From contig NC_092806.1 in assembly GCF_040954645.1 (NCBI RefSeq), positions 73,286,141 to 73,350,140 of the forward strand: a stretch of 64,000 bases of DNA, in the 5' to 3' direction. Position 1 is the stretch's first letter. Each line of letters starts with the position of its first letter. The notes beneath the pieces are model-generated. The model searched no databases, was not told where the DNA came from, and saw nothing but the letters and a program-made list of their open reading frames with translations. This DNA comes from Diabrotica undecimpunctata (taxonomy: Eukaryota; Arthropoda; Insecta; Coleoptera; Chrysomelidae). This document shows positions 583 to 54,400 of the stretch, piece after piece. A program made the translations under genes and the position numbers.

Positions 583-2424
583 CTAAACTTCAACTACTTT
601 AATGTCTTTTTTAAAAATGCATTTGGTGCTTCCATCTAAACACTCTATAGATGCGGGATTTGGTAAAAATTCAACTATGCCCTCCTTACTAATTTGGGAT
701 ATGTCGGCATCAATCATCTTAAATTCTGTCTTGCTGGGTTTTATGGATTTATAGCCTATGACTATTACTTCCGGCTCGACCTCCAAATTTTTACAGACAT
801 AGATATAAGTTTTTTTTCCTCTCTGAGATAAGAATTTTGCTAAAATATATCTACCTGCTTGAACCTTATCTACTTCAGACTGCACTTCGTAGTTTTCTTC
901 ATTTTCTAACAAGTCTGATTCATTTTCGGACTCGGATTCATCTGACATCTGTGATATGTGGCTTTCTTTATCTGAACTATCTTCTGATTGCTGCTCAATT
1001 ATTGCTGTTGACACACTAGCTCCGGGAGCTACATCTAGTTTCTTTTTTCTTGTTTTTGGTCTCTCTGGTCCTCCAAATCTTTGCTCCTTTAGAAGTGCAG
1101 TTAATGCATTTTCAACAGCGTCCGTGGGATCTTGTGGAGCGTCATCTGTTGGCAATTTCTTATAAACTTCACCCGGGCAAAACGGATAAATACCAGTAAA
1201 ACGAAAGGAGCTAATTAAGTTTCGCTTTACTGCTGACGCAATTTTATCCGTTTGTTGGGATGGACCACCTTTCGAAACTCGAGGAGTGACTTCGTCAAGA
1301 GTTTTTAATGTTTTCCTTAAAAGAGATGAAAACATATCTTTTGGAACTGTACTTAATCGCAAATTTTGTAATTTCCAATCCGTTAACGTCGTCCTCCAAG
1401 CCTGTTTCATTGGCCTGAAAAAGCCCACGTCCAGTGGTTGGCACAAATGGGTAGAATTTGGAACTAAGCATATGAAGTCAATTTCATGTTCAGCACACAT
1501 CTTAAGAACTTCAACATCCATGTGTGACGACAAATTATCTCCTATCAAAGCTTTTCTTCCTTCTAAACGTCGTGCATGGGGTAAAAAGCAAGTTGTGAAC
1601 CAGTCTCTAAAAGTTACGCCACCTATCCATCCACTTTGAGTACGATTATACCTCGTCCCTTGGTTGCAGCATGGTTTATCGCAGCAAGGTAAACCACGCG
1701 GTCCATTTTCCTTCCACGTATCATACAGGTGAATGCTTTTATAAATGACGTAGGGAGGGAGAAGAGTTCCGTCTGCAGCAGCACATACCATAATAGTGGT
1801 ACAACTTTTGGAGTGATTCATCACTTTTTCGGGGTACTTAATGCCTCTTTTGTATATGCAACGTTTTCTCCCTGGATCGTCTGACAAATTAGATTCGTCA
1901 TAGTTGAAAATGTTGGAACTGGGCAAATCTTTAATTACTGGCTCCAAGTTATAAAACTCTTCTAGTGTAACTCTTGAAACAGCAGCTCTAGCACGTTTAA
2001 TATTTGTTGCTAGTCGTTGCCCAAACGAATCCTTATGCCTATTAAGTAGGCTGTATGCCCAGTCAATACCAGGCAGATTATTTTGAAATATAGCCACGTT
2101 TTTTCCTTGTTGATCCAAATACCATTTTGCCATCATTCGTAGGTCCTGAATAGATCAAGGAAAGCCCCAGTCAGCACATTTAGCGGCTGCTTTTAAAATT
2201 GCTACCTCCTCTCCTTTGGTGAAAATAGTAGGACGTCCGGGGGTGCCAATATGTTTTCCTTTATATCTGTTATACAGGGTACCAAAGGGAATTTTATATT
2301 GTCTTGATGCTTCTCTAATAGATAGTGTACCTTCAACTACCCGTTCGATGGCTCTTTCTAAATTTGCTGGAGGGTAATCAGCGTAACTTCTGCTGCCCAG
2401 TAATCTTTTATGCTTACGGGGCAT
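583..2424 (-). pseudogene. pogo/Tigger-type DDD transposase with one in-frame stop
   Basis: The first 89 codons (2424 down to 2158) encode a Psq-type helix-turn-helix DNA-binding domain (REASRQYKIPFGTLYNRYKG). A TGA at 2157-2155 interrupts the frame. The same frame then continues, through seven codons and an ATG at 2136, into a 517-residue DDE-1 transposase. Counting from that ATG, the acidic residues are D80 in NYDES, D200 in IGDNLSSH and D236 in QPLDVGFF, which gives a DD35D spacing. A cysteine cluster (CCDKPCC, about 151) and an SGW motif precede the second D, and an acidic, serine-rich stretch and a C-terminal domain follow. Known for the family: it cuts and pastes its own element into TA sites in the nucleus. 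The lesion is a single stop, so either the copy is young or the TGA is read through; the first is much more likely. Confidence 0.9.
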
Positions 2425-5364: not shown

Positions 5365-7135
5365 CTTTGTATACTTCTATGTGTCATCTCTGTTTAGGTT
5401 GGCGACCATTACAGCAAATTCGTTTCTACCCTGGGTTATGTGTGTTAGGTTATTTCCGTTGGTTTTCGTCCAATCAATATTTCTCAGCCACGATTTCTTC
5501 TTTCGACCTATACCTCTTCTTCCAACTATCTTTCCCTCAATCGGTAAATCGTTTTTCTGGCCTTAATAGTTCAGACTAGTTGTCACTGGATATTCATTTT
5601 CCATAAGACTTTTGCGTTAGAGCCACATTTAAAATACTTGCAGCTTTTTTAAATCTTCCTGATTCATCTACCACGTTTCACATCCATATAGCAAGCAGTA
5701 AGGACCAAACGTAGCACTTTAGTGTCCGAAACTTCGGGCCAACTTTGGGTGGCATAGAATTTTTTTATATTATCAAAACAAGTCCTGGTGATTTCAATGC
5801 GTTCTCTAATTTCTTTTGAGTAGTCCAGCTAAATGTTTATTTATCTTCTTAGATATAGGTAGCTGTGAACGTTTTGAATGTTAGTATTGTCGATAACTAT
5901 TTTCGCACTTTTTTGCATGCAGGTTTCACATTCAAAAACTAGGGTTTTGAGGAGTCTATCTCTAGTCCCATCCTGGCACTCGATTCCGAGAGAATATTCA
6001 TTAGTTGCTGTAGATGTTTTTCCGATTCAGTTTCGATCAGGATATTGATCACAATTCTGTTGATTTTCGCACCCTCAGGCCTTTCTTTCAAAGATTCCTT
6101 AATAATATGTTCCGCATAGACGTTAAATAGAAGCGGAGTTAGGTTAAATTTCCTCGTTTTAGGCTGACATAATTGCTGTGCCATTTGCAGTACGAACACA
6201 CTTATTATGATTCCAGTATACCTATATTGCATATAATAAATTTATCCCATCCATCGAGCCCGATCTCTTGTAGGATTTGAATCATTTTGTCGTGCTTTAT
6301 ACGGTCGAATGACTTCCGTTAATCATTCAAATATGTTTCCGCCAACAGCGTAAACCTCAAAATTGCTTCCTAGTGCCTGTTCTCTTTCGAAAACCATATT
6401 GGGATCGGCTTAAAAATGCGTCGCATTTATTATCAAGTATGTTGTGAATGATCCGCATAAATATTTTTGCAGCGTGACTCATTAGGCTTATCATTCTATA
6501 GTCCTTACATTTTCTTGCCTTATTTCGTTTGGCTATGTATGTTTTATGTAGAAGTTAGCCAGCCCTGTAAGAGCATTCCTTTTTCATATATGTCATTGAA
6601 GAAGTACGTTAATTTCTTAGCGGATGCTTCGCTGCACTTTGTCTCTTTTATAGCTCATACAATTCCTGGTGTCAATACGAGACTTGGATGTCATCTATTC
6701 TATTATCTGCAAATAATTCTAGGAGTCCAAATTTGATTTGGTTTTTAGGGTCTATTATCATTTCTTTATTTTTGTCTTCCATTAGATTTATTCCATTCTA
6801 GTATTATTATTCGTCTTCCACTATAGATACTTTTTGGGGCTTCTAGAGACCTGCAACTTTTTAAATTTTTTTATGTAGTTCTCAGTTTTCTACCCGTAAG
6901 TGTTTCTTTATTTCTTTGTTGAGGCTTAGATATATGACTGGCGCTTGTTGTTTTTTTTTTCTTAGCCTCTTTCTTCCATTAATTTCAAGATATTCTGTAA
7001 TTCAGGGCTCTCTTTTTATGGAATTTTGCCTCACTATTTTTGCTTCTTCTGCTTCTATAAACGTTTCTTTGAGACTTGTCGATCTCTTTTTATTTCTCTT
7101 GTGGCTTCATCTTCTCTTCTCTAATAATATTATCC
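5365..7135 (-). pseudogene. decayed LINE-C copy, antisense
   Basis: Reading the minus strand from 7135 downwards, the EN-RT linker (ISxNxWKKEAKKK, broken) appears first. An RT core follows near 6230-5940 (FNVYAEHIIKESLKERPEGAKIN, then ESEKHLQQLMNILSESSARMGLEID). The copy ends with the C-terminal tail near 5560-5365 ending in VANLN. Reading frames are interrupted by many stops and shifts. The copy ends at 7135, where the RTE insertion at 7148-8636 begins with a target duplication. Any continuation beyond 8648 is not convincing. Family parallels are at 37.3-39.6 kb and 44.2-45.7 kb. Confidence 0.7.
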
Positions 7136-7147
7136 ATAATTTGTATT
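7136..7147. repeat. target-site duplication, left copy
   Basis: ATAATTTGTATT, identical to 8637-8648, immediately precedes the 5' end of the RTE-type insertion. Confidence 0.85.
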
Positions 7148-8636
7148 CCCAGAAAAACAATAAAGCCCCGGAAGCTAACGAAATACCAGCAGAATTGTAT
7201 ACGGTAGGTGGCGGCCACCTAGCAAGTCCCATGTACGCGCTAATCAAAGACATATGGCAAGAAGAGAAAATAGCCGACGACTGGAAGAAAAGTATAATAT
7301 GCCCGATCTATAAAAAAGGAGACAAACTCCAGTGCAAAAACTACCGTGCAATTTCTCTACTATGTATAGCATATAGAGTCCTCACGTATATTATAAACCA
7401 GCGGCTCCAACCACTAGCAGAAAATATTATTGGAAAGTATCAGACGGGCTTCCGACAAGGAAGATCGACACTGGATCAAATATTTACAGTCAAACAGATC
7501 TTGAGTAAATCATGGGAACATGGCATTGATGTTCACAACGTGTTTGAAGACTTCAATTAGGCATACGACTCAGTCAAAAGGAACAAACTTTACAATATAT
7601 TGACTTAATTGGCAATACCACACAAGCTAATTAGACTTATTAAAGCCACAATAGATGAAACTCAGGCATGTGTACGAATACAAAACCACCGTACAGACTT
7701 TTTCAAAATTTCGCAGCGACTAAAGTAGGGAGATGGCTGGCCCCTACTTTGTTTAACGTGGCACTGGAGTATGCAGTTCGACAAATGCATACTGGACGAG
7801 GAAACCTAGTGACTAACAGAACGGTTCAACTGGCCCCTTATGAAGATAATATTAATATTATTAGTAGAACATTAACAGGAAACATACACATAGTTAAAAA
7901 CGCAAACAAAAAGGCTAGGTCTGGAAATTAACGCAGAAAAAACAAAAATAATGATACAGACCAGAAGAAATATAGTCCCACAAAACATTGTACATGAAGA
8001 TGACAATGAAACGGTTGGAAAGTTTACATACCTGGGAGTAGAAATATACGCCGACGGATCAGAAAATGGAGAAATACGGAAGAGAATAACGCAGCAAACA
8101 AAGCTTATTTTGCCCTCTCCCATATATTTCGGTCTAACAATGTCCACCGAAATACAAAGATCAGAATCTATAAAACCCTAATTCGACCAATAGCACGGCT
8201 ATGGCAGTGAAGCATGGGTCTGAAAGAAACATCCAAAAGCAAACTCGGCACATTCGAAAGGAAAGTACTGAGGAGAATACTAGGACCTGTGAGGGAAAAC
8301 GGAATCTTCATAAGTCGATACAACAACGAGCTTTATCAACTTTATAAGGAAGCACCACTATCAGACTTCATTAGAATACAAAGATTGCAATTGGCCGGAC
8401 ATGTGATAAGAATAAGAGAGGATAGGCTACCAAAAAAAAAACTGAATGCTAGAATGCAGAGAAAGAGACCTGTTGGAAAGCCAAGAAAGTGCTGGGAAGA
8501 CACAGTAAACAGCGAAGCACAAGGCCTTTTAGGAGTACGTGTATGGAGAAGATCAGCCACAGACAAGCAAGGGTGGAGGCAAAAAATAAAGGAGGCCAAG
8601 GCTCAATTTGGGCTGTAGTGCCGTAGAAGAGGAAGA
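7148..8636 (+). mobile_element. 5'-truncated RTE-type LINE, broken ORF, 12-bp TSD
   Basis: Plus-strand frames give a continuous but broken RT: NNKAPEANEIPAELY, then WKKSIICPIYKKGDK, NYRAISLL, and a fingers motif GKYQTGFRQGRSTLDQIF. EDFN follows with a stop where the family has DFxxAYDSV. The catalytic YADD region near 7840 reads as PYEDN, so the active site is lost. The C-terminal block (8214-8618) includes ERKVLRRILGPVRENG, LAGHVIRI, KRPVGKPRKCWED and ends AQFGL before a stop. A short purine-rich tail precedes the target duplication at 8637. Endonuclease is absent because of 5' truncation. Confidence 0.85.
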
Positions 8637-9576: not shown

Positions 9577-10996
9577 CTACTACTACTACTTGTCGGTTTA
9601 TAACGGTTGTTCCATAGATCTTCTTCTATGGCCCTCTCTCTCAGTTCTTTATTTATTCCTTCGCTCCAACTTTTTCTCGGTCTACCTCGTTTTCTCTTTC
9701 CTTCGGGTTGCCACTTTAGTATTTCTTTTGGCATTCGTTGGTCGTCCATTCTTTAAATGTGTCCGAACCAGATAGGTTGTTTTGTTGTTAGGTCATCTGT
9801 GATTGTTCGTTTGATTCCCATTATTTCTCTAATGCGTTCGTTTTTAATCCTTTCTCTTCTAGATCTTCCTGCGGCTCTTCTCCAAAAATCCATTTCCGTC
9901 GCTTTCAGCGTTGACAGTGTTCTTTCTTTCAGTGGCCATACCTCACAGCTGTATAAAGCGATACTTTTTACTATAGTCTTATATATCCTCTTTTTATTTT
10001 CTTTGCTGATGGATTGGTCCCATAAAATGGTGTTTAACATTGTGATGGCTTTTCTCCCTGACGTATTTCTCTCTCTTATGGTTGTGTCTAATGTTCCATC
10101 TTGTGAAATAGTGATACCTAGGTATTTGTAGTCACAGCAGTGCTTTATCGTAGTGTTATCGTCTAATATGAGATCTTTTTGTTCTGCTCCAATGCACAGG
10201 TATTCGGTTTTCTTTTTATTTACTTCTAGACCCCATATATCATACTCTTCAATTAATTTTCGTCCATATAGTTTAAATCGTCATAATCTTGAGCCATTAT
10301 TACTTGATCGTCTGCAAAGTTAAGCGTATATACCATAGTATTGGTGAGCGGTATCCCCATTGTCCTGCATTTTTGTTTCCATCTTTTTAAAGCACTTTCG
10401 AGGTATATTTTATATAAAGTGGGAGACAAGCAACATCCTTGCTTTAATCCTTTTGATGTTATAAATCCTGTTGTTATTTGTGTCCCTGCTTTTATCTTTG
10501 TTATTGGTTGGTTGTATAGCACTTTGACGGCTTTTATTAATTCTATATTAATATTCGTGCTTTCCATTGATTGCCACAGCTTCTTTAGTGGAACGCTGTC
10601 GTAGGCTTTCCGTAGGTCGACGAACAACATATGAATCTCTTGATTCCTTGCCACCTTTTTTTCTATTATCTGGGTTAAGGAGAAAATGTGGTCAATAGTG
10701 GATCGACCCTTACGAAATCCTGCTTGTTCTTCTGCTTCATAATCTAAGTATTCTCTCTCGATTCGGTTCTTTAACACCTGTTCATATATTTGACTCATAG
10801 ATCCGGTTACAGCTATTCCTCGGTAATTTTCACAATTATTTTTATCACCCTTTTTATGTATAGTGCTGAGGTATGATATCTTCCATTCCGTAGGGATTTC
10901 GCTTGTGTTTATGCATTCTTGAAAAAGTTGTCGAAGACATTCGTATAATTTGTTTCGTTGGCAGTTTCTTTCCCAAGACTCGTTCTTGAGTAACAA
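9577..10996 (-). mobile_element. LINE-E (RTE-like), 5'-truncated, one frameshift
   Basis: The minus strand from 10996 to 10253 encodes RT fingers and palm: IPTEWKISYLSTIHKKGDK, ENYRGIAV, EEQAGFRKGRSTIDHIF, FVDLRKAYDSVP, GLKQGCCLSPTLYKIYLE and the catalytic box FADDQVIMAQD (FADD in place of YADD, usual for this family). A frameshift near 10253 moves the frame. It resumes with WGLEVNKKKTEYLCIG, YKYLGITIS and, at 10040-9753 and 9749-9590, KATEMDFWRRAAGRSRRERI, IWFGHI and KRKRGRPRKSW. The ORF ends near 9595 and is followed by (TAG)n, seen as TACTACTAC at 9579-9591. EN is missing. This is the best-preserved RT in the window apart from the shift. Confidence 0.85.
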
Positions 10997-23023: not shown

Positions 23024-25731
23024 ATATCTCTCAACATCTGATTATAATTAATTTGTAATTAAATTTAAGCAACTTGCTCGTTGGAAATGGTATGGAAAAG
23101 TTTTAAATCCGTCCAATTAATCATTAAATTATATTATTTGTAATTTAAATGAGTTTAACAGACCATTTAACGAAATCAACTCGTTAATCTGCTGATATTT
23201 TGTGTTACTTTGTATTAATTAAATAATTTTCGTTTTTTTAAATTATCATATAACAGTTAAAAAATGTAAAAAACATTTGTATAAAACTTTCACAACTTGG
23301 ACATCTGCGCGATATATAAAAGAAAAGAAAAGAAAATGCTATTTATAACAAGATCGAAGAAAATGCGAAAACATTTTTAATAAGTTTTCTATGCGGATAT
23401 ACGTTGTCTAAATTAAAAATAGAGTTATAAATGTAGCGAGAGGTAATAGCCAAAAAAGAATGTGCTCTAAACTAATATTAGAAGGCACATGTTAGAACAC
23501 ACACATAAGATATATCTGTAGTGTTAGGGCAAAAGGACTTAAGTCAGTAAATGGAATATTGCAGAAATTTTTTTTAAAGATTTGATGAAACATGCTAAAT
23601 CTATTTTTATCCTAATTAAATATTTTGTCAGCACATATGGGTCAAAAATAGCTTATTTACAATACATACTAGGGTTTAATATGAAATATTGTAAAATAAT
23701 AAAGTTTGATCTGACTTAAGTCCTTTGGATCACAGAATAAAATACTTAAGTTTTTTTGACCAGATATTTTAATCATATTAAATACACAAGTTTACATTTT
23801 AATAACAGTAATATTTAGTTTTTAAATTATAATATAACTATGATGGAGTTATTCGTTATCAGAAACAAACTGCTCTAAATCTGGGTCCTTATCGTTCATA
23901 CTTGTAGTTGGCAGTTTTTGATAAAAATTTTTGTATACTTCTGGTACGAGCGGTAAAAGATCTAGAAGATGTTGCTTTTTTTCTAGAGCTATAGGTATTA
24001 ACCCATCATACTTATTCTTTAGTTCTATTGCACTTTGTCGACCTCTCCTAGTAAAATTAATTTTCATAAAATTTTCTGACTCTTCCAGAAAACTCTTATA
24101 AAATATTGTAGCATATTTTTTCTGTATTGCAGCCAACGACATTTCTGCAATTTGAACAACTCTCCATCAACATTTTTTTGCTTCTTTACAAACGTTGTCC
24201 TTAATAAAGCAGCAAAATCATAGAAGTCATCTGAAGTTAATTCATTGATCTTAAATGGACGTTTTTTGTTTGTGCATCTAATTGCCGAATCATGAGGATG
24301 GGCAATTTTTATTCCCGATTTTTTTTTCTGTTTTTCAATAAGGGAATGGTCAACATCGCATTCCATGTGTGAATGCCCAGAGATCATAAATTTATGATTG
24401 ATCTCATTTATTGAGCTTTTCATTTGCATGACTGACATGAACATGGCAGCTACGTGGAAATTTTTATTCTGCCCTGCACATGTATCTGAGTAAAAGGTTA
24501 TTTTAGTGACTTCAGGTGACAGGTTCATTATTTCCTTGAAAAGACAAGAAGCAATCTCATTTGCACCACGGTGAGCGATTGATTCATGCCAGATATAACA
24601 GGAAGCTGCTCCTGAAGCACAGTTATGTACCGTTAAATTGTAAGTCCAGTACTTTCTCTTATAAAAAGAAACAGAAGTTTCCAAAAACGGCGTTGGCAGG
24701 CACTGCTGAAGATCAAAAGTGTAACAGCCAAATGAGGTATCTTGCTTGGCCTTCTCTTTATCCAACTTCTTACATTTATAAGCTAAGTCTGCATCAAGTT
24801 GGTGTGTTGTTTGAGAGATCATCAACTGGCTCATTTCTTCCGTATCTTTAGTAACAGCGATTCTCATGCTAAATTCTTCACAGGTATGACAGACGTCTGT
24901 TTCAAAAACCTTAAACTTAAGATTAAGTTTATGAAATTCTCTTTCATATATACTTCTTCCTACTGGGTTTTGACACATCTCTAAGTAAAGTTGGTACATT
25001 TTTGTCAAATTGAGATCTGAGTTTAGATACTGTTTATTATTGACCCGCCTCGTGTAATGGCTCTCATATTTAGGAAATGAATTTATATGAGCAATAACTT
25101 CTTGTAACCTGGCGTCAGAAGTTTTGTTAGTAGGTGTGTGTTTTCCTCTTTTATCTTGCATGTACATTCCGGTTACACTATTCGATTTATTTCTCAGGGT
25201 ACTTTGTATAAATTTATCAGTTTCATCCAAAGTTAATTGAAAACATTGTTTACAGGTCCTACACCGCTGTCCATTTATTTGGAAAAAATAGGTGAAAGTT
25301 ATGTTTCTTTCCTTTGAACTTCCTTTTTTTTTCTACGTGTTTCAACTTCGCCTGACGTGATGCAGTTTGCTATAAAATATTGCCTCTTTTCATAACTTCC
25401 TAGTCCCCAATATTCTTTAAAAATGTCACTTCTCAGTTCTTCAGATAACCATTGCTTGCATTTTAATCTGCAGTTTTTTAAGTCTTTCATTACGCGCTTT
25501 CTTCATTGTGGATGTTATTTACTTCAGAAGAGTTTAGTTCACACGTCTTTATCTGTATACTTTCAGCGGTTATATGATCCGATGAACTACGTGGTAGCAA
25601 ATTTTGAGTTGTTATGAGAGTTTCGTCGCTATCCGAGTCATTTTCTGAATTAACGTAAGGCGGATCTTTTTTAGAATCATAACCATCCCAATAATATTCA
25701 TCATCTAGTTCACTTCTCTCAGTGTTTTCTT

Positions 25732-26416
25732 CTAAAAATAAAATAATCATGGATTAGTCAAAAGTTTTTTCTATGAAAGCTATATTTTATATAATGTATT
25801 GACAAGCTAATTATTTAATTTAAGGGCAAAGGCGCAAAATGTCACCTGTCAAAATGTTCAATGTGTTTTAAAAATATTTTTGAAAAAATTAAACGCAAAA
25901 TAAAAGATTGCATTATGACCGAGGACCAAAAGTCCCTTAGAATAACCAAAAAGTTTCTTTGGAATGAGATACTTGAAATTAAAGTCACTAAATTTTCTCT
26001 TTTTTTTTCGCCCCTGTAACTTACTAATAAACACTATAGAAGTTTTTAGGGACTTTTGGCCCTTGGTAATAACATAATCTTTCATTCGACGTTTACATTG
26101 TTTAAAAATATTTATTAGTTTTCTCAGGATTTGAAAAAAAAAATGAATACATTTAAAACACATTGAAAATTTTGACAGGCGACATTTACCGACTAAGTAT
26201 TCCCTTAATAATTGTGATAAATTTAATATTTAAAGGATTACTTATGCGTTAAACTTGTTTATAAATTATATTATTATTACGTATATTTTGCTTTTGATAT
26301 GTTTAAAATCAATAAAACTAATAATTTTTGAAGATGCACTCTTAATAGATAACCTCAAAACGTGTATTTAATTATAATGTATGTACTTAGGTATATTTGT
26401 ATTATAATTTACTTAC
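25732..26416 (-). other. intron of the transposase-like gene
   Basis: GTAAGT at 26416-26411 and a T-rich tract ending TAG at 25732 form standard splice sites. Joining exons keeps the frame (phase 1) and keeps the glutamate codon. The intron is 685 bp, of which 381 bp is a TTAA-flanked MITE. Confidence 0.7.
25824..26204. mobile_element. foldback MITE with TTAA flanks, in the intron
   Basis: TTAA at 25820-25823 and 26205-26208 flank a 381-bp segment whose ends are inverted: GGGCAAAGGCGCAAAATGTC versus (minus strand) GGGAATACTTAGTCGGTAAA. Both then continue into a shared CCTGTCAAAATxTTCAATG and, further in, ACCAAAAGTCCC versus GCCAAAAGTCCC. The arms thus pair over most of the element. A TTAA target is typical of piggyBac-mobilised elements. 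Confidence 0.78.
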
Positions 26417-26826
26417 CATATACGTTATTTTTTCTACATAAATCCAAAATCTTTGCACTTCGTTTAGACATTATTGAAGTTATACTTCTATACGCGCGCT
26501 CCACGTTGGAAATTTGTATGGGAGTGAATCTGTGAAATCATTACATATGTAAGATAATGAGTAAGAGAGAGACGGAAGATATATTTTCTCTCTCTTCCTG
26601 TCTCGAATATAAAAATGTTCCTTTTGTATATATAATTTAATATTATATATATTATATAAAGATATATATATACATATAATATTATACATATAATAAAATA
26701 TTTATTAATATTATTATTTATGTGATATGTTTTGTATTATTTATTAAATGTTCATAATTATATTAGTATTTTGTATTTCAAAATAATAATCTCAATAAAT
26801 CACTGTATGATCCAGAACTATCAATG

Positions 26827-26870
26827 TATGTCACGCGGGAGACCGGGGTTCGATTCTCAGTCGTGGAGCA
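26827..26870 (+). pseudogene. tRNA-Asp(GTC) 3' half
   Basis: TGTCACGCGGGAGACCGGGG followed by TTCGATTCTCAGTCGTGGAG matches the anticodon arm (GTC at 26830-26832), variable loop, T arm with a B box (GGTTCGATTCT) and acceptor 3' strand of animal tRNA-Asp. GCA and a run of seven T follow. The D arm and 5' acceptor strand are missing: the bases upstream do not pair. It cannot make a functional tRNA. It may be a captured tRNA fragment or a relic of a tRNA-derived SINE. Confidence 0.82.
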
Positions 26871-26892
26871 TTTTTTTAATAATATTATTACA

Positions 26893-27060
26893 TTATTGTC
26901 ATTTTTAAATACTTATCGATATTGCATTTTAATTTGTATTGTATTATTATATGGAATTATGTTGCACTGTATTGTAGTGTATTTTTTTATGTATATTATT
27001 GTCATTTTTAAATACTTATGCTTATTGCAGTTTAATTTGTATTGTATTATTATAATAATA
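26893..27060. repeat. 103-bp-period direct duplication
   Basis: TATTGTCATTTTTAAATACT starts at 26895 and again at 26998, and the match continues over about 57 bp (TATTGCAxTTTAATTTGTATTGTATTATTAT). It lies inside the nested TIR element, next to the tRNA half. Confidence 0.8.
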
Positions 27061-27763
27061 ACAAAATAAACAATGAATTTTACTGCAGAGTATGTGTAAA
27101 AAATTTTGCATTCAACTCCTTTCATACATATATGAAAATAAAAATATACATTTTCATCAAAATATTGATTCAATCCTTCATTGTTAGTAAGTTGTTATTA
27201 ATTCTGTTTCTCTTTCTGCTATGTCTTACCTATAGAATTACATATGTAATGATTGTGCAGATTGACTCCCAAATAAATTTGTAGCGGCGAATGCGTGTAT
27301 AGAAGTGTAACTTCCACCGGCAGTTCCACTGGACTACCACACCCGTTTTTTTAATAATAAACAAGCCTAGAAATCGATATTATACTCAGGCACTTTACTT
27401 TTAGCGTTTATCAATCAGGTGAATGTTTTAGCACGATCAGTAAGATTTATTTCATATACACTTACACCGCCACCTACGCATGGACTATTGATACAGAGGA
27501 CTTAAGTTACATAAGTCGTTTATATCGGACAAAACTACAAAATAGCATTCGGTAAAAAGGATTTAAGTTACATATGTTCGTTTGCTCAAACAAAAATAGT
27601 GTGATGTAACTTAAGTTCGTTGAACCAGTCTTAATAAAAACCTTATATTTTAAGATAGACTTAATTCTTTTTTACCGAAACAAACTTCTTCACAATTTAC
27701 AACCAAATGTGTAGATAACTCATTTTGGCCAAAAATGGACTTAAGTCCTTTTGCCCTAACACT

Positions 27764-27766
<3 letters not shown>

Positions 27767-27845
<79 letters not shown>

Positions 27846-37311: not shown

Positions 37312-39560
37312 AATCTTCTTCTTCAAGTGCCCTCTCCGCTACGGAGTTTAGATATCATCATTGCTATTCGTATCTTTGAAGCTGTTGCTCTAAATAATTG
37401 GTTAGATGTACACTGGAACCAGTCTCTTAAATTGCGCAGCCAAGATATACGTCGTCTCCCCACGCTTCGTTTGCCCTGAATCTTTCCTTGCAATCGGTAC
37501 TTTTTCTTTCTCATCACATGACCAAGATATTCCAACTTTCTTCTGTTGATGGTGATCAACAGCTACCGTTTTTTGTTCATTCTTCGAAGAACTACACTAT
37601 TTGTTATTTTGTCTGTCCAAGTTATTTTCAAAATTCTTCTGTATATCCACATTTCGAAGGCCTCTAGTTTATCGGTATTGCTCTTGTTTAAAGTCCAAGT
37701 ATCTACTCCGTACAGCAGTATCGAGAAGATGTAGCATCTAACCAATCTCATTTTCAGGTTTAAGTTAATGTCATGACTTCCCAGAATGTCCTTCATATTA
37801 ACAAAAGCAGCTCGAGCCTTTCCAATTCTAGTTTTTATTTCTTCTGTGATGTCATTGTTGTTATTAACGCTTGTTCCCAAATATTTATATTTGTGCACCC
37901 GTTCGATTTCGTTATTGTGAATGTACAGGTTTGCATTAAATCTTTGTTTTTTTGAAATAATCATGAATTTCGTCTTCTTGACGTTCATTGTTAACCCTTT
38001 CTCTTCACTAGCAGTGACTACCTTGTTTAAAATGGCTTGCAGGTCTTCTACTGTCTCCGCCATTAAAACCGTATCATCTGCGTATCTAATATTATTAATT
38101 GGTTAGCCGTTAACTTTTATCCCAATCTCGTCTTCCTCCAATGCTTTCTTCATAATTTCTTCCGAATAGAGATTAAATAGCATTGGTGACAGCACACATC
38201 CTTGTCTTACTCCTTTTTTAATTTGAATTTCATTTGTTGTGCTATTTTCGATGCGTGCGACTACCTTCTGATTATAATACAGAGTAGATATTATGCTTAT
38301 ATCGCGAGTGTCTAACTGTTTAGCTTCCAAGATCTCTAAAAGTTGGTCATGCTTGACGTTATCAAACGCCTTGTTGTAATCAATGAAACAAGCAAATACA
38401 TCTTGATTCACATCCAAACACCTCTGTGTCAAGATGTTAAAGGCAAATAATGCTTCGCGAGTTCCATATCCCTCCCGGAATCCAAACTGAGTTTTTCCGA
38501 TATCTTCTTCCAATTTTCTGTAAATTCTTTTGTGAATTATTTTGAACAATATTTTTAAGGTATGGCTCATCAGACTGATCGTGCGATGATCACTGCACTG
38601 CTTAGCATGTACCTTCTTGGGAAGAGGGACAAAGGTTGATCTTAGCCATTCTTCAGGAATTATACTATTTACATAAATCTTGTTAAATAAGTCTACTAAC
38701 AAATGGATTCGATCTTCGTCTATCAACTTTAGTATATCCGCTGGTAGCTCGTCTGGTCCTGGAGCTTTGCCTTACTTCTTCTTTGCTTATTTCTGGACCT
38801 GTCTCCTCTGGAAAATTATCACAAGGAGGCTGCCTTTGATCGTCAAACAGTTCTTCTATGTATGTCTGCCACTGTTTTAGTTTCTCCTCTGTTTCCATTA
38901 TCATGTTCCCTTGTTGGTCTATAAATACTGTCTGCTTCCTGTTTCTATTGTTGATCATTTCTTTAACTTTCTTGTGAAGATAGAACGAATCATATTTGGC
39001 TTCCAAGTTTTCAATCTCCTTACATTTGTCTTGTAACCATTGTTTTTTAGCGTCGCGGATTTTTCTTTTTATCTCTGTGTTAATTTGCTTATACTGTTCT
39101 TCATTTTTGCCTTTCGATAGTCTTCGAGAATTCATCAATAACGAAATTTCGTCAATCATCCATTCTCCAGTTTCTTTGGTTTTTCTCTCTTCAGAATATT
39201 TTTAGCGGGCTCCAGCACGTTCTTTTTAATAATGGCCCAGTGTTTATTAATGTCTAGTTCTGGTATCTCCTCTGTCTTTTCAAGTTTTTCAAGATTTGCC
39301 TGAATGCTTGTTTCTACCTGATGTTTAATTGTTTCATCATTTAAACGATTGATATCTATTACTTGTTTGGGCTTAGGTGTTTGTACTCTTTTAAGTTTTA
39401 TTCGGAATTGTGTCACTACTGGATTGTGGTCTGACCCTATATCTGCTCTTGGATACGTTATCACAGATTCAATTGTGTTTTTTTTATAGCTATATTGAAT
39501 ATATCTGGGTCTGAAAGTTACAAACAACATTAATAAAGAAATCATTAACTTCGTCGGGTA
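37312..39560 (-). mobile_element. long LINE-C copy, 5'-truncated in the endonuclease
   Basis: On the minus strand it begins with the end of an APE endonuclease, RADIGSDHNPVVTQFRIK (39440-39390, catalytic SDH). The linker (WMIDEISLLMNSRRLSKGK, YKQINTEIKRKIRDAKKQW) and a frameshift near 38770 follow. The RT (38726-38103) contains EDRIHLLVDLFNKIYV, EWLRSTFVPLPKK, LMSHTLKILFKIIHKRIY, TQFGFREGYGTREALFA and CFIDYNKAFDNVKHDQLLE, then GVRQGCVLSPMLFNLYSEEI. A TAG at 38102 precedes PINNIRYADDTVLMAETVED (catalytic YADD intact). The C-terminal part is 38063-37323, shifted near 37560, ending GEGT and a GAAGAAGAAG tail at 37316-37326. This is the most complete LINE-C in the window. Confidence 0.88.
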
Positions 39561-51474: not shown

Positions 51475-54400
51475 TATTTCGAAAAATATGTGTCTCGACA
51501 GCTAATGGTTTGACACAGGTACAATTTACATTCATGTTTACATGGTTAATACTTTACATTGGGTACAAATTAGTTACAATACATTTTTTATAATACATTT
51601 TGTTTTATATTAAATTGTATAACTTAGTGTTTTTTAAAAAGTTTAATACATTTTCATAGTTGCTGCTGTTTGAGATAAGTATGTCTTTTAGGTTGTTACC
51701 AAGATTGTATTTTCTTCTGGCCGCTAGGTAGTGTTGACAGTCAAGAAGTACATGTGTTACGGAAGTCGTGCTGTTGCAGTACTGGCACAAAATCTGATTA
51801 CTTCAATTCATTAGGTGTCCATGTGTAAGGCGTGTGTGCCCTATTCTCAATCTTCGAATGATAGATTTGTCCTTTCTTTTCATTGGTGGGAGCTGGTGGT
51901 AGAAAATGTTTGGTTGTAGAACGCTTAACTTGGTATTGCTTCTTTTCCAATGATCATTCCAAAGGTCCATTATTTTATGTTTGATTATTCTTTTAAATCT
52001 GATTATGTTTGAATGTCTGTTGTTACGTTAAGAGAACATGCTTGTTTTGCTGCTTGATCGGCTTTTTCGTTACCTGGAATACCAACGTGTGATAGGACCC
52101 ACAATACTGTTACTGTAATTCCATTAGTTTGAAGGCGATTACATATACTCTGGATTTCTTGAACTATTGGGTGGATATAATGTACGTTTCTTATGGGCTG
52201 CATGGAGGACAGAGAGTCCGTAAAGATTGCTATAGTTTTATCATCGTTGAGTGGAGTTTTCACCGCTTGTAGTATTCCATATAGTTCAGCAGTATAAATA
52301 CTGCAATTGCTGGAGAGTCGAAACAAGTTGACGGTGGTTGTAGTCGTTGTAACAGCATAGCCACACCTTCTTCAGTCTTAGATGCATCTGAGTAAAGGAT
52401 CTTATCGAAGTTGCATTGATGTAGTATTTCATAGAATCTTTATTTGATAACGGAAGGTGATATTTCATTCTTATTATATTTGGATAATTCGATATTGAAA
52501 TTTGGAAGTTTACATATCCATGGAGGAGTTTGAGGGACCGTGAAAGGACTGGTCGACAACAGATTGATATCTAAATAAGGAATTAACATTGTATAGTGGA
52601 CGGTACCATTCTAGGATTATTAGTAACTGGTAATTGTCTATTACAGATGAGGTTTCTTGTGGAATTTGTGGGATTTGCTGAAACTCTAGCGAAATAGAGC
52701 AGTAGAAGTTGTTGTCGTCTTAGATGAAGCGAGGGTTCGAAACATTCTACATGAATGCTTTCCACCGGACTGGATTGGAATGCTCCTAAACAGAGTCGAA
52801 GGGAAGTATTTTAGACTACATTTAGTAAACGTAGTAGTGAGTTACTTGATGACATGTAGAGAACACTACCATAGTCAAGTTTGGAGCGAATAAGAGCTCG
52901 ATATATTTTTAGTAGCGTTTCCTCATCGGCTCCCCAACTATAATCAGCTAGTGATTCATTCTTTGAAGGCAGCTACCCTTAAGTTCTCGAATGTGTGGTC
53001 TCCAGGAAAGTTTTTTATCGAAAATAATGCCAAGAAGCTTCATTTGATCTACTACTTGGAGAAAATTTCCATTCAGAGTAATGGTTGGAGATTGCGTGTT
53101 TTGTCTTCTGGTAAAATGAATAGGTAACTTTGGATTTGGATGTGGAGAAGTTAAGGCCGGATTGACTGGCCCAGTTGTTTATTTTACTTAGCGTGTTTTG
53201 TAGTAAAGTAATTGTGCTGGATGTGACCTTTCCGTGACAGAATAATATTATATCGTCAGCATATATTCCGTATTGTACAGGGTCGTTTATGAATGAACTA
53301 ATATCGTTAATACTAAGGAGAAATAGTGTGCTGCTTAGGACAGACCCTTGTGGGACACCGTTTGTGGTTGTGTGCTGTGAGGAAGTTTTGCCATTAGTAA
53401 TTACTTTAAAGGATCGCTCTGTGAGAAAAATTTTTATAAACGAATATATATTACCGGATAGCTTGTTCTGGTTTAGTTTGTTTAGTATTACAGAAATCGG
53501 TATGGAGTCAAAAGCGCTTTCTATGTCAAGGAAAATTGCAATGACTTCATTTTTGTTAGATAGCGCAGTCACAATTATTGATTGCAGAAGTATAAGATTG
53601 TCCATGGTGCATCGTTTTGGTCTGAAGCCTGATTGAAATTGGTCAAGAATTTTATTTTGTTCAAGGTAATCTTTTATTAACCATTTTTTCTAGAAGTTTA
53701 CATAATGTACAGGTGAGAGAGATTTGCCTGTATGAGTTTAGCGTGTCTAGTTATTGATCGCCTTTTTTGATAGGAATCGTTATGGATTGTTTCTATAGTG
53801 ATGGGAATTTTTGGGAAGACCAAATGTTGTTGAACAGTTGGAGTATTTTCTCGTATGTATTTTGGTGAAGGTTTTTTAAAAAGATAGAGGGAATATCGTC
53901 AGGGCCTGCAGCTGAACTTTTTGTCGAAAAAATAGCATCATTTAGTTCTTGGAAACTGAAAGGTATATTAATGGGATGATTAGTATTGCAAGTTTTGTGA
54001 GTAGCATCAATTTCGTTATGTGGATTAGTAGGATTATTTGATTTATTGAGAAAGTGTTGGGAAAGCATTTCACTGATTTGTTGGTCATCTGTAATTATTT
54101 TGTCTTGAATGGAGAGAGCTGGAATTTTGTATGATGTGTAATGTCCTTTCATTCTCTTTATTTTTGACCATACTTTAGTAGGTGGGGTATCTTTTGTAAT
54201 AGAGCTGGTAAAATGATTCCATGAATTGTGTTTACTGTTTTTTATTATGCGTTTTGTTTTTGCTCTGAGCTTTTTAAAATCTATTAAGTCAGCTAGAGTG
54301 CGCGATTTTCGGAATCTGTTTAAAGCTCTTTGGCTTTCTTGAATTGCTGTTTTGCATGAGTCATTCCACCAGGGAACGTGTTTTTTATTGGGTTAATTTT

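Follow-up and report, generated by a model that had tools for sequence, protein, structure and literature searches.

The Sola superfamily of DNA transposons and its Sola2 group reportedly go back to Bao et al. 2009. Excerpts of the later literature give Sola elements a 4-bp target-site duplication (TSD), a length of 2–9 kb and a transposase of the DDD type (PMC10741241), and describe the Sola2 TSD as an AT-rich 4-bp AWWT (PMC3627910); in such excerpts, Sola2 is recorded in an insect and an ostracod. Classification in Repbase, according to PMC4455052, uses a transposase sequence test. Sola is unmentioned in PMC5718144, and the match to "sola" in PMC8982398 was not a whole word. Here we analysed a stretch of 64,000 nt from Diabrotica undecimpunctata (the window, within which all coordinates are given). 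It contains a DNA transposon of 4,252 bp with terminal inverted repeats (TIRs), spanning positions 23516–27767. We consider it, with a probability of about 0.9, a dead copy of a cut-and-paste transposon of the DUF7869 protein family, with a transposase whose RNase H-like core bears two aspartates and a glutamate (DDE). Its assignment to an already known kind of element is well supported and involves no new mechanism, and most likely it represents new families in a known superfamily whose catalytic domain includes DUF7869.

Element ends and target-site duplications

The exact ends were set from sister copies: the element starts CTCTAGTG and finishes CACTAGAG. The earlier note on this DNA had placed a transposon at 23519..27766; the placement stands, with the left end extended by 3 bases and the right end by 1. 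Counted from the corrected ends, 29 of the first 30 bases match in inverted orientation. When the terminal 400 bp of both sides were compared, exact inverted identity extended over at most 27 bases, in agreement with the 25 or more shared bases claimed before; 60 first-order Markov shuffles never gave more than 13. The repeated subterminal motifs of the same note correspond to six exact copies of ACTTAAGT, three beginning at most 230 bp from the left end and three at most 270 bp from the right, with no exact copy in the element interior between the two clusters. Copies were assigned to three related families, A (that of the window), B and C. The CTCT...AGAG termini were constant across all three, and the GACTTAAG motif adjoins the ends of family B as well.

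Copy numbers rest on a left-end search and a protein search. The left 601 bases gave 40 scored matches from 51 candidates in the 1.74-Gb genome, although a few matches are fragments of the same copy. Fifteen, including the window, had at least 94% identity over the query or over all but its first two bases. Twenty genomic stretches holding other left-end matches were taken for comparison. Further copies with both ends and a 4-bp TSD were found, as expected of a transposon.

The window element itself is flanked by a 4-bp ATAT TSD, overlooked in the earlier note. A 2-bp TA duplication, suggested by the window ends alone, was rejected since sister copies gave 4 bp. Flanks were paired for 23 copies (13 of family A, 8 of B and 2 of C), including one rearranged composite, L025, with ends 7.9 kb apart. 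Sequences with no end pair stayed outside the count: L043 and L053 of family B, L056 and L058 of family C (left end not found within the stretch taken) and 8 of the 21 family-A sequences. Twelve of the 23 copies lie in (TA)n runs, where the duplication is unjudgeable; 10 of these agree at 4 bp. Outside such runs, an identical 4-mer was present on both sides in 10 of 11 copies (ATAT in 4, AATT in 3, AAAT in 2 and ATGT in 1), with no longer match in any of the 10. This is far above chance despite the AT-rich sites, since mispaired flanks among the 11 informative copies agreed in only 24 of 110 cases. AAAT and ATGT are non-palindromic and therefore indicate a true direct duplication, not longer inverted ends. 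At least one side abuts a (TA)n run in 10 of 13 family-A copies, which suggests a target preference of this family for (TA)n; the alternative is later growth of the runs.

The varied 4-bp TSD of these 10 copies, which is not TA, TTAA, or 8, 9 or 3 bp long, makes membership in another textbook superfamily (Tc1/mariner, piggyBac/Kolobok, hAT, MULE or CACTA) extremely improbable, even with terminal letters TAGTG/CACTA that look CACTA-like at first sight and with mariner-type domains among the closest folds, ranked under integrases. No other transposase Pfam domain was found in the scanned proteins. Tc1/mariner was rejected because the duplications are 4 bp and not TA. The piggyBac and Kolobok elements duplicate TTAA, and were rejected because this sequence is not among the four TSDs observed. 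CACTA/EnSpm elements mostly have a 3-bp TSD and ends starting CACTA; they were rejected since the ends here start CTCT, the TSD is 4 bp and the CACTA letters lie inside the end in reversed order.

Transposase family, predicted fold and decay

A 388-aa open reading frame (ORF) of the window (24064–25230, minus strand) matched Pfam PF25273 (DUF7869) over residues 207–363 with 37.4 bits against a cut-off of 26, and no Pfam domain but DUF7869 exceeded its cut-off in the scanned transposase proteins. The motifs FDLQ, YSDxCxGQN and GHSxxECDxDH, proposed earlier as a DDE/RNase H-type active site, were present and near-invariant across 80 aligned proteins. The predicted catalytic positions of the window ORF are D173, D249 and E290. 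In the alignment, D253 was conserved in 79/79 proteins, D329 in 80/80 and E370 in 78/79, and the neighbouring D372 in 79/79. AlphaFold models showed an RNase H-like core (b1-b2-b3-a1-b4-a2-b5-a3) in which one residue of the acidic triad lies on b1, one follows b4 and one belongs to the last helix. This structure prediction, together with the conserved D-D-E, supports the proposed type of active site. The closest folds of the models were retroviral integrases, followed by mariner-type transposase domains. Foldseek against BFVD yielded two matches at E ≤ 0.001, both with low TM-scores: an IS4-type transposase at 7.1e-4 and a fragment of a mismatch-repair ATPase at 8.9e-4. A sequence search of solved structures with protein P0006 gave nothing at E up to 1. 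In protein P0001, the Pfam match starts near residue 290 (profile position 25), past the strand bearing D253; the DUF7869 model thus seems to leave some of the catalytic core uncovered. One relative, P0181 of Frankliniella fusca, is annotated as "Proline--tRNA ligase" and matches the transposase profile over 98% of P0001; it is probably a misannotation or a fused gene model.

The earlier note was right that an internal gene is present, but it is not a working one: it is a pseudogene with frame breaks and a deletion. Compared with database relatives P0138 (690 aa) and P0137 (717 aa), it consists of four pieces in three frames, with frame changes near 25.50, 25.31 and 24.12 kb. The roughly 124 bp lost at 25498–25503 are present in all 11 copies spanning the site (13 compared). 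The window copy, which also carries the nested insertion described below, is dead; judging from its sequence, it would make no whole protein and could move only in trans. Stops or frame breaks occurred in 17/17 family-A copies examined, and family A therefore looks non-autonomous now, although further copies might differ.

The sister families are better preserved. The family-B protein is 56–58% identical to that of family A, and family-B copies are approximately 96–99% alike. A stop-to-stop frame of 658 codons was found in L040 and L041 (family B) and a frame of 804 codons in L055 (family C), the remaining members having shorter or interrupted frames. Seven more genomic matches share one score (357.4 bits) at 44% identity, which suggests a young family. 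Genome-wide, DUF7869 gave 8,786 first-look candidates, and 150/150 scored matches were above the cut-off. The best reached 71 bits, well above the window ORF, and so probably belong to other subfamilies; sets of matches with open frames of one and the same length (539, 578 and 619 codons) look like young families. No match to the DUF7869 profile was found in 14 control genomes. A virus or prokaryote as the source of the relatives was rejected, as they occurred in 0/10 viral_contigs and 0/47 genome_contigs pattern matches.

Alternatively, an unrelated TIR element could have captured a host gene that is not its transposase. This would agree with the annotation of DUF7869 as of unknown function and with the names of the relatives, among which "uncharacterized protein" and "unnamed protein product" predominate in the matches listed. 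Such an origin is very unlikely, however, as the same protein lies within same-type termini and a 4-bp TSD in three families, has a predicted RNase H-like fold with a conserved D-D-E, and is repeated in the genome to the extent given above.

Gene structure and other features of the window

In family A, 21 sequences, including the window, were searched for the predicted 5' intron. The donor ATG/GTAAGT was kept in 9/9 sequences aligned across it, and exon 1 with the donor was deleted in 6 further sequences; the acceptor TTTTTAG/AAG was kept in 7 of the 14 aligned there. The predicted Diabrotica virgifera protein P0136, a family-B relative, skips short segments of the 5' region of L041, including one between ISK and GNIVYSQL, where the DNA reads AAG/GTATGA and TTTTAG/GAAAC. 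This pattern supports the presence of 5' introns in these genes, and the 55-nt exon stays a prediction.

The proposed start codon is preceded, at a distance of 6 bp, by a nested insertion of 870 bp. The insertion is common to the window and L025 and missing from six copies with both flanks (L009, L011, L012, L020, L022 and L023); insertion-free copies L009, L011, L012 and L020 are 3,463 to 3,521 bp long. Its TIR-like arms begin GAAGTTAYACTTCTATAC, it carries a 63-nt internal duplication (26889/26992), and approximately 30 bp past the right arm are also extra.

Elsewhere in the window, 10 of the 17 ORFs of at least 150 aa were scanned against Pfam together, and the 388-aa ORF separately. A 517-aa ORF (583–2136, minus strand) carries a DDE_1 transposase domain (74 bits). 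Reverse transcriptase domains in four ORF fragments (6916–7560, 10253–10996, 38103–38726 and 53015–53605) represent retroelement debris. Rfam and tRNA scans of the window gave no match.

Table 1. Features of the transposon copy and its flanks in the window
Feature	Positions	Strand	Details
Left TSD	23512..23515		ATAT; inside a short AT run, register from sister copies
Left TIR, 30 bp	23516..23545	+	CTGTAGTGTTAGGGCAAAAGGACTTAAGTC here; third base mostly C at other ends
Left subterminal region	23516..23770		ACTTAAGT at 23537, 23714, 23744
Transposase pseudogene, C-terminal part	23852..24121	-	Frame differs from main piece; 52–54% identity to P0138/P0001
Main transposase piece, catalytic core	24118..25332	-	Comparison with relatives, DUF7869 match, models
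Transposase N-terminal part, another frame	25305..25502	-	Comparison with relatives
Deletion scar	25498..25503		About 124 bp lost between 6-bp direct repeats
Acidic N-terminal exon-2 segment of transposase	25511..25741	-	32% identity to P0138
Proposed 5' intron	25742..26414	-	GTAAGT donor, TTTTTAG acceptor; predicted
Proposed 55-nt first exon	26415..26469	-	Starts ATGTCTAAACGAAG; predicted
Nested 870-bp insertion	26476..27345		Imperfect 104-nt inverted arms 26476–26579 / 27211–27314
Right subterminal region	27492..27767		ACTTAAGT at 27500, 27609, 27739
Right TIR, 30 bp	27738..27767	-	Ends CACTAGAG
Right TSD	27768..27771		ATAT; beginning of a (TA)n run

Proposed mechanism, classification and comparison with known systems

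Judging from the predicted fold, the transposase of an intact relative would bind the element ends and cut at the CTCT...AGAG termini; its binding sites may be the (G)ACTTAAGT motifs repeated in the subterminal regions. Joining of the ends to an AT-rich target at positions staggered by 4 bp would then create AWNT duplications.

Several observations weigh against this interpretation and the classification that goes with it. In a plain Foldseek search, the best PDB match had an E of 5.9e-3, so that none fell below 0.001. The flanks were unequal in L055, one of the 11 informative copies, and in L020 and L044, two of the 12 in (TA)n runs. The proposed intron acceptor was deleted in 7 of 14 family-A sequences. 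The model favours E370 as the third catalytic residue by its position at the helix start, in contrast to the DDD given for Sola in the excerpt of PMC10741241, and the equally conserved D372 is an alternative. Transcription, protein and transposition are predicted from DNA and structural models, and the Sola2 name relies on the TSD and architecture, compared by description.

We favour membership in the Sola2 group of the Sola superfamily with modest confidence. The earlier label "DUF7869/Sola-like" thus holds in its first part by a Pfam match over the cut-off, and in its second by TSD and architecture only. The AWWT consensus, as defined in the excerpt of PMC3627910, fits 9/10 exact 4-bp TSDs, the tenth being ATGT. 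A separate DDE superfamily of DUF7869 elements that merely converged on a Sola2-like 4-bp AT-rich TSD is possible but rather doubtful: DUF7869 alone exceeds the Pfam cut-off, P0006 has no PDB sequence match, the termini are constant in three families, and DUF7869 was absent from the literature searched (papers outside that literature were not covered), but in the length and composition of the TSD, in TIRs and in size the elements agree with the Sola2 and Sola descriptions in the excerpts of the literature, which also report Sola2 from an insect and an ostracod. More tentatively still, DUF7869 transposases might form a distinct, very numerous and unnamed insect DDE superfamily apart from Sola2, with CTCT...AGAG ends, AWNT 4-bp TSDs, a taste for (TA)n and several families active or very recently active in Diabrotica.

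These data indicate a likely function for the DUF7869 region of many "uncharacterized" insect proteins, in which it would form a large share of the catalytic half in a DDE transposase. Gene sets can accordingly be purged of such proteins where they count as host genes. For direct tests of transposition, the candidates are those sister families that combine long open frames with near-identical copies.

In the models, the transposase resembles the Mos1/SETMAR mariner transposases and retroviral integrases in its RNase H-like core and D-D-E order; it differs from them in the 4-bp AT-rich TSD in place of TA, a cysteine-containing N-terminal half and the lack of a PDB sequence match. The 30-bp CTCT...AGAG ends, the repeated ACTTAAGT and one ATGT TSD outside AWWT are unlike or beyond the Sola2 description. 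With Sola2, as described in the excerpts, the element shares a 4-bp AT-rich TSD of the AWWT type, TIRs, a single large transposase, a kilobase size and an arthropod host.
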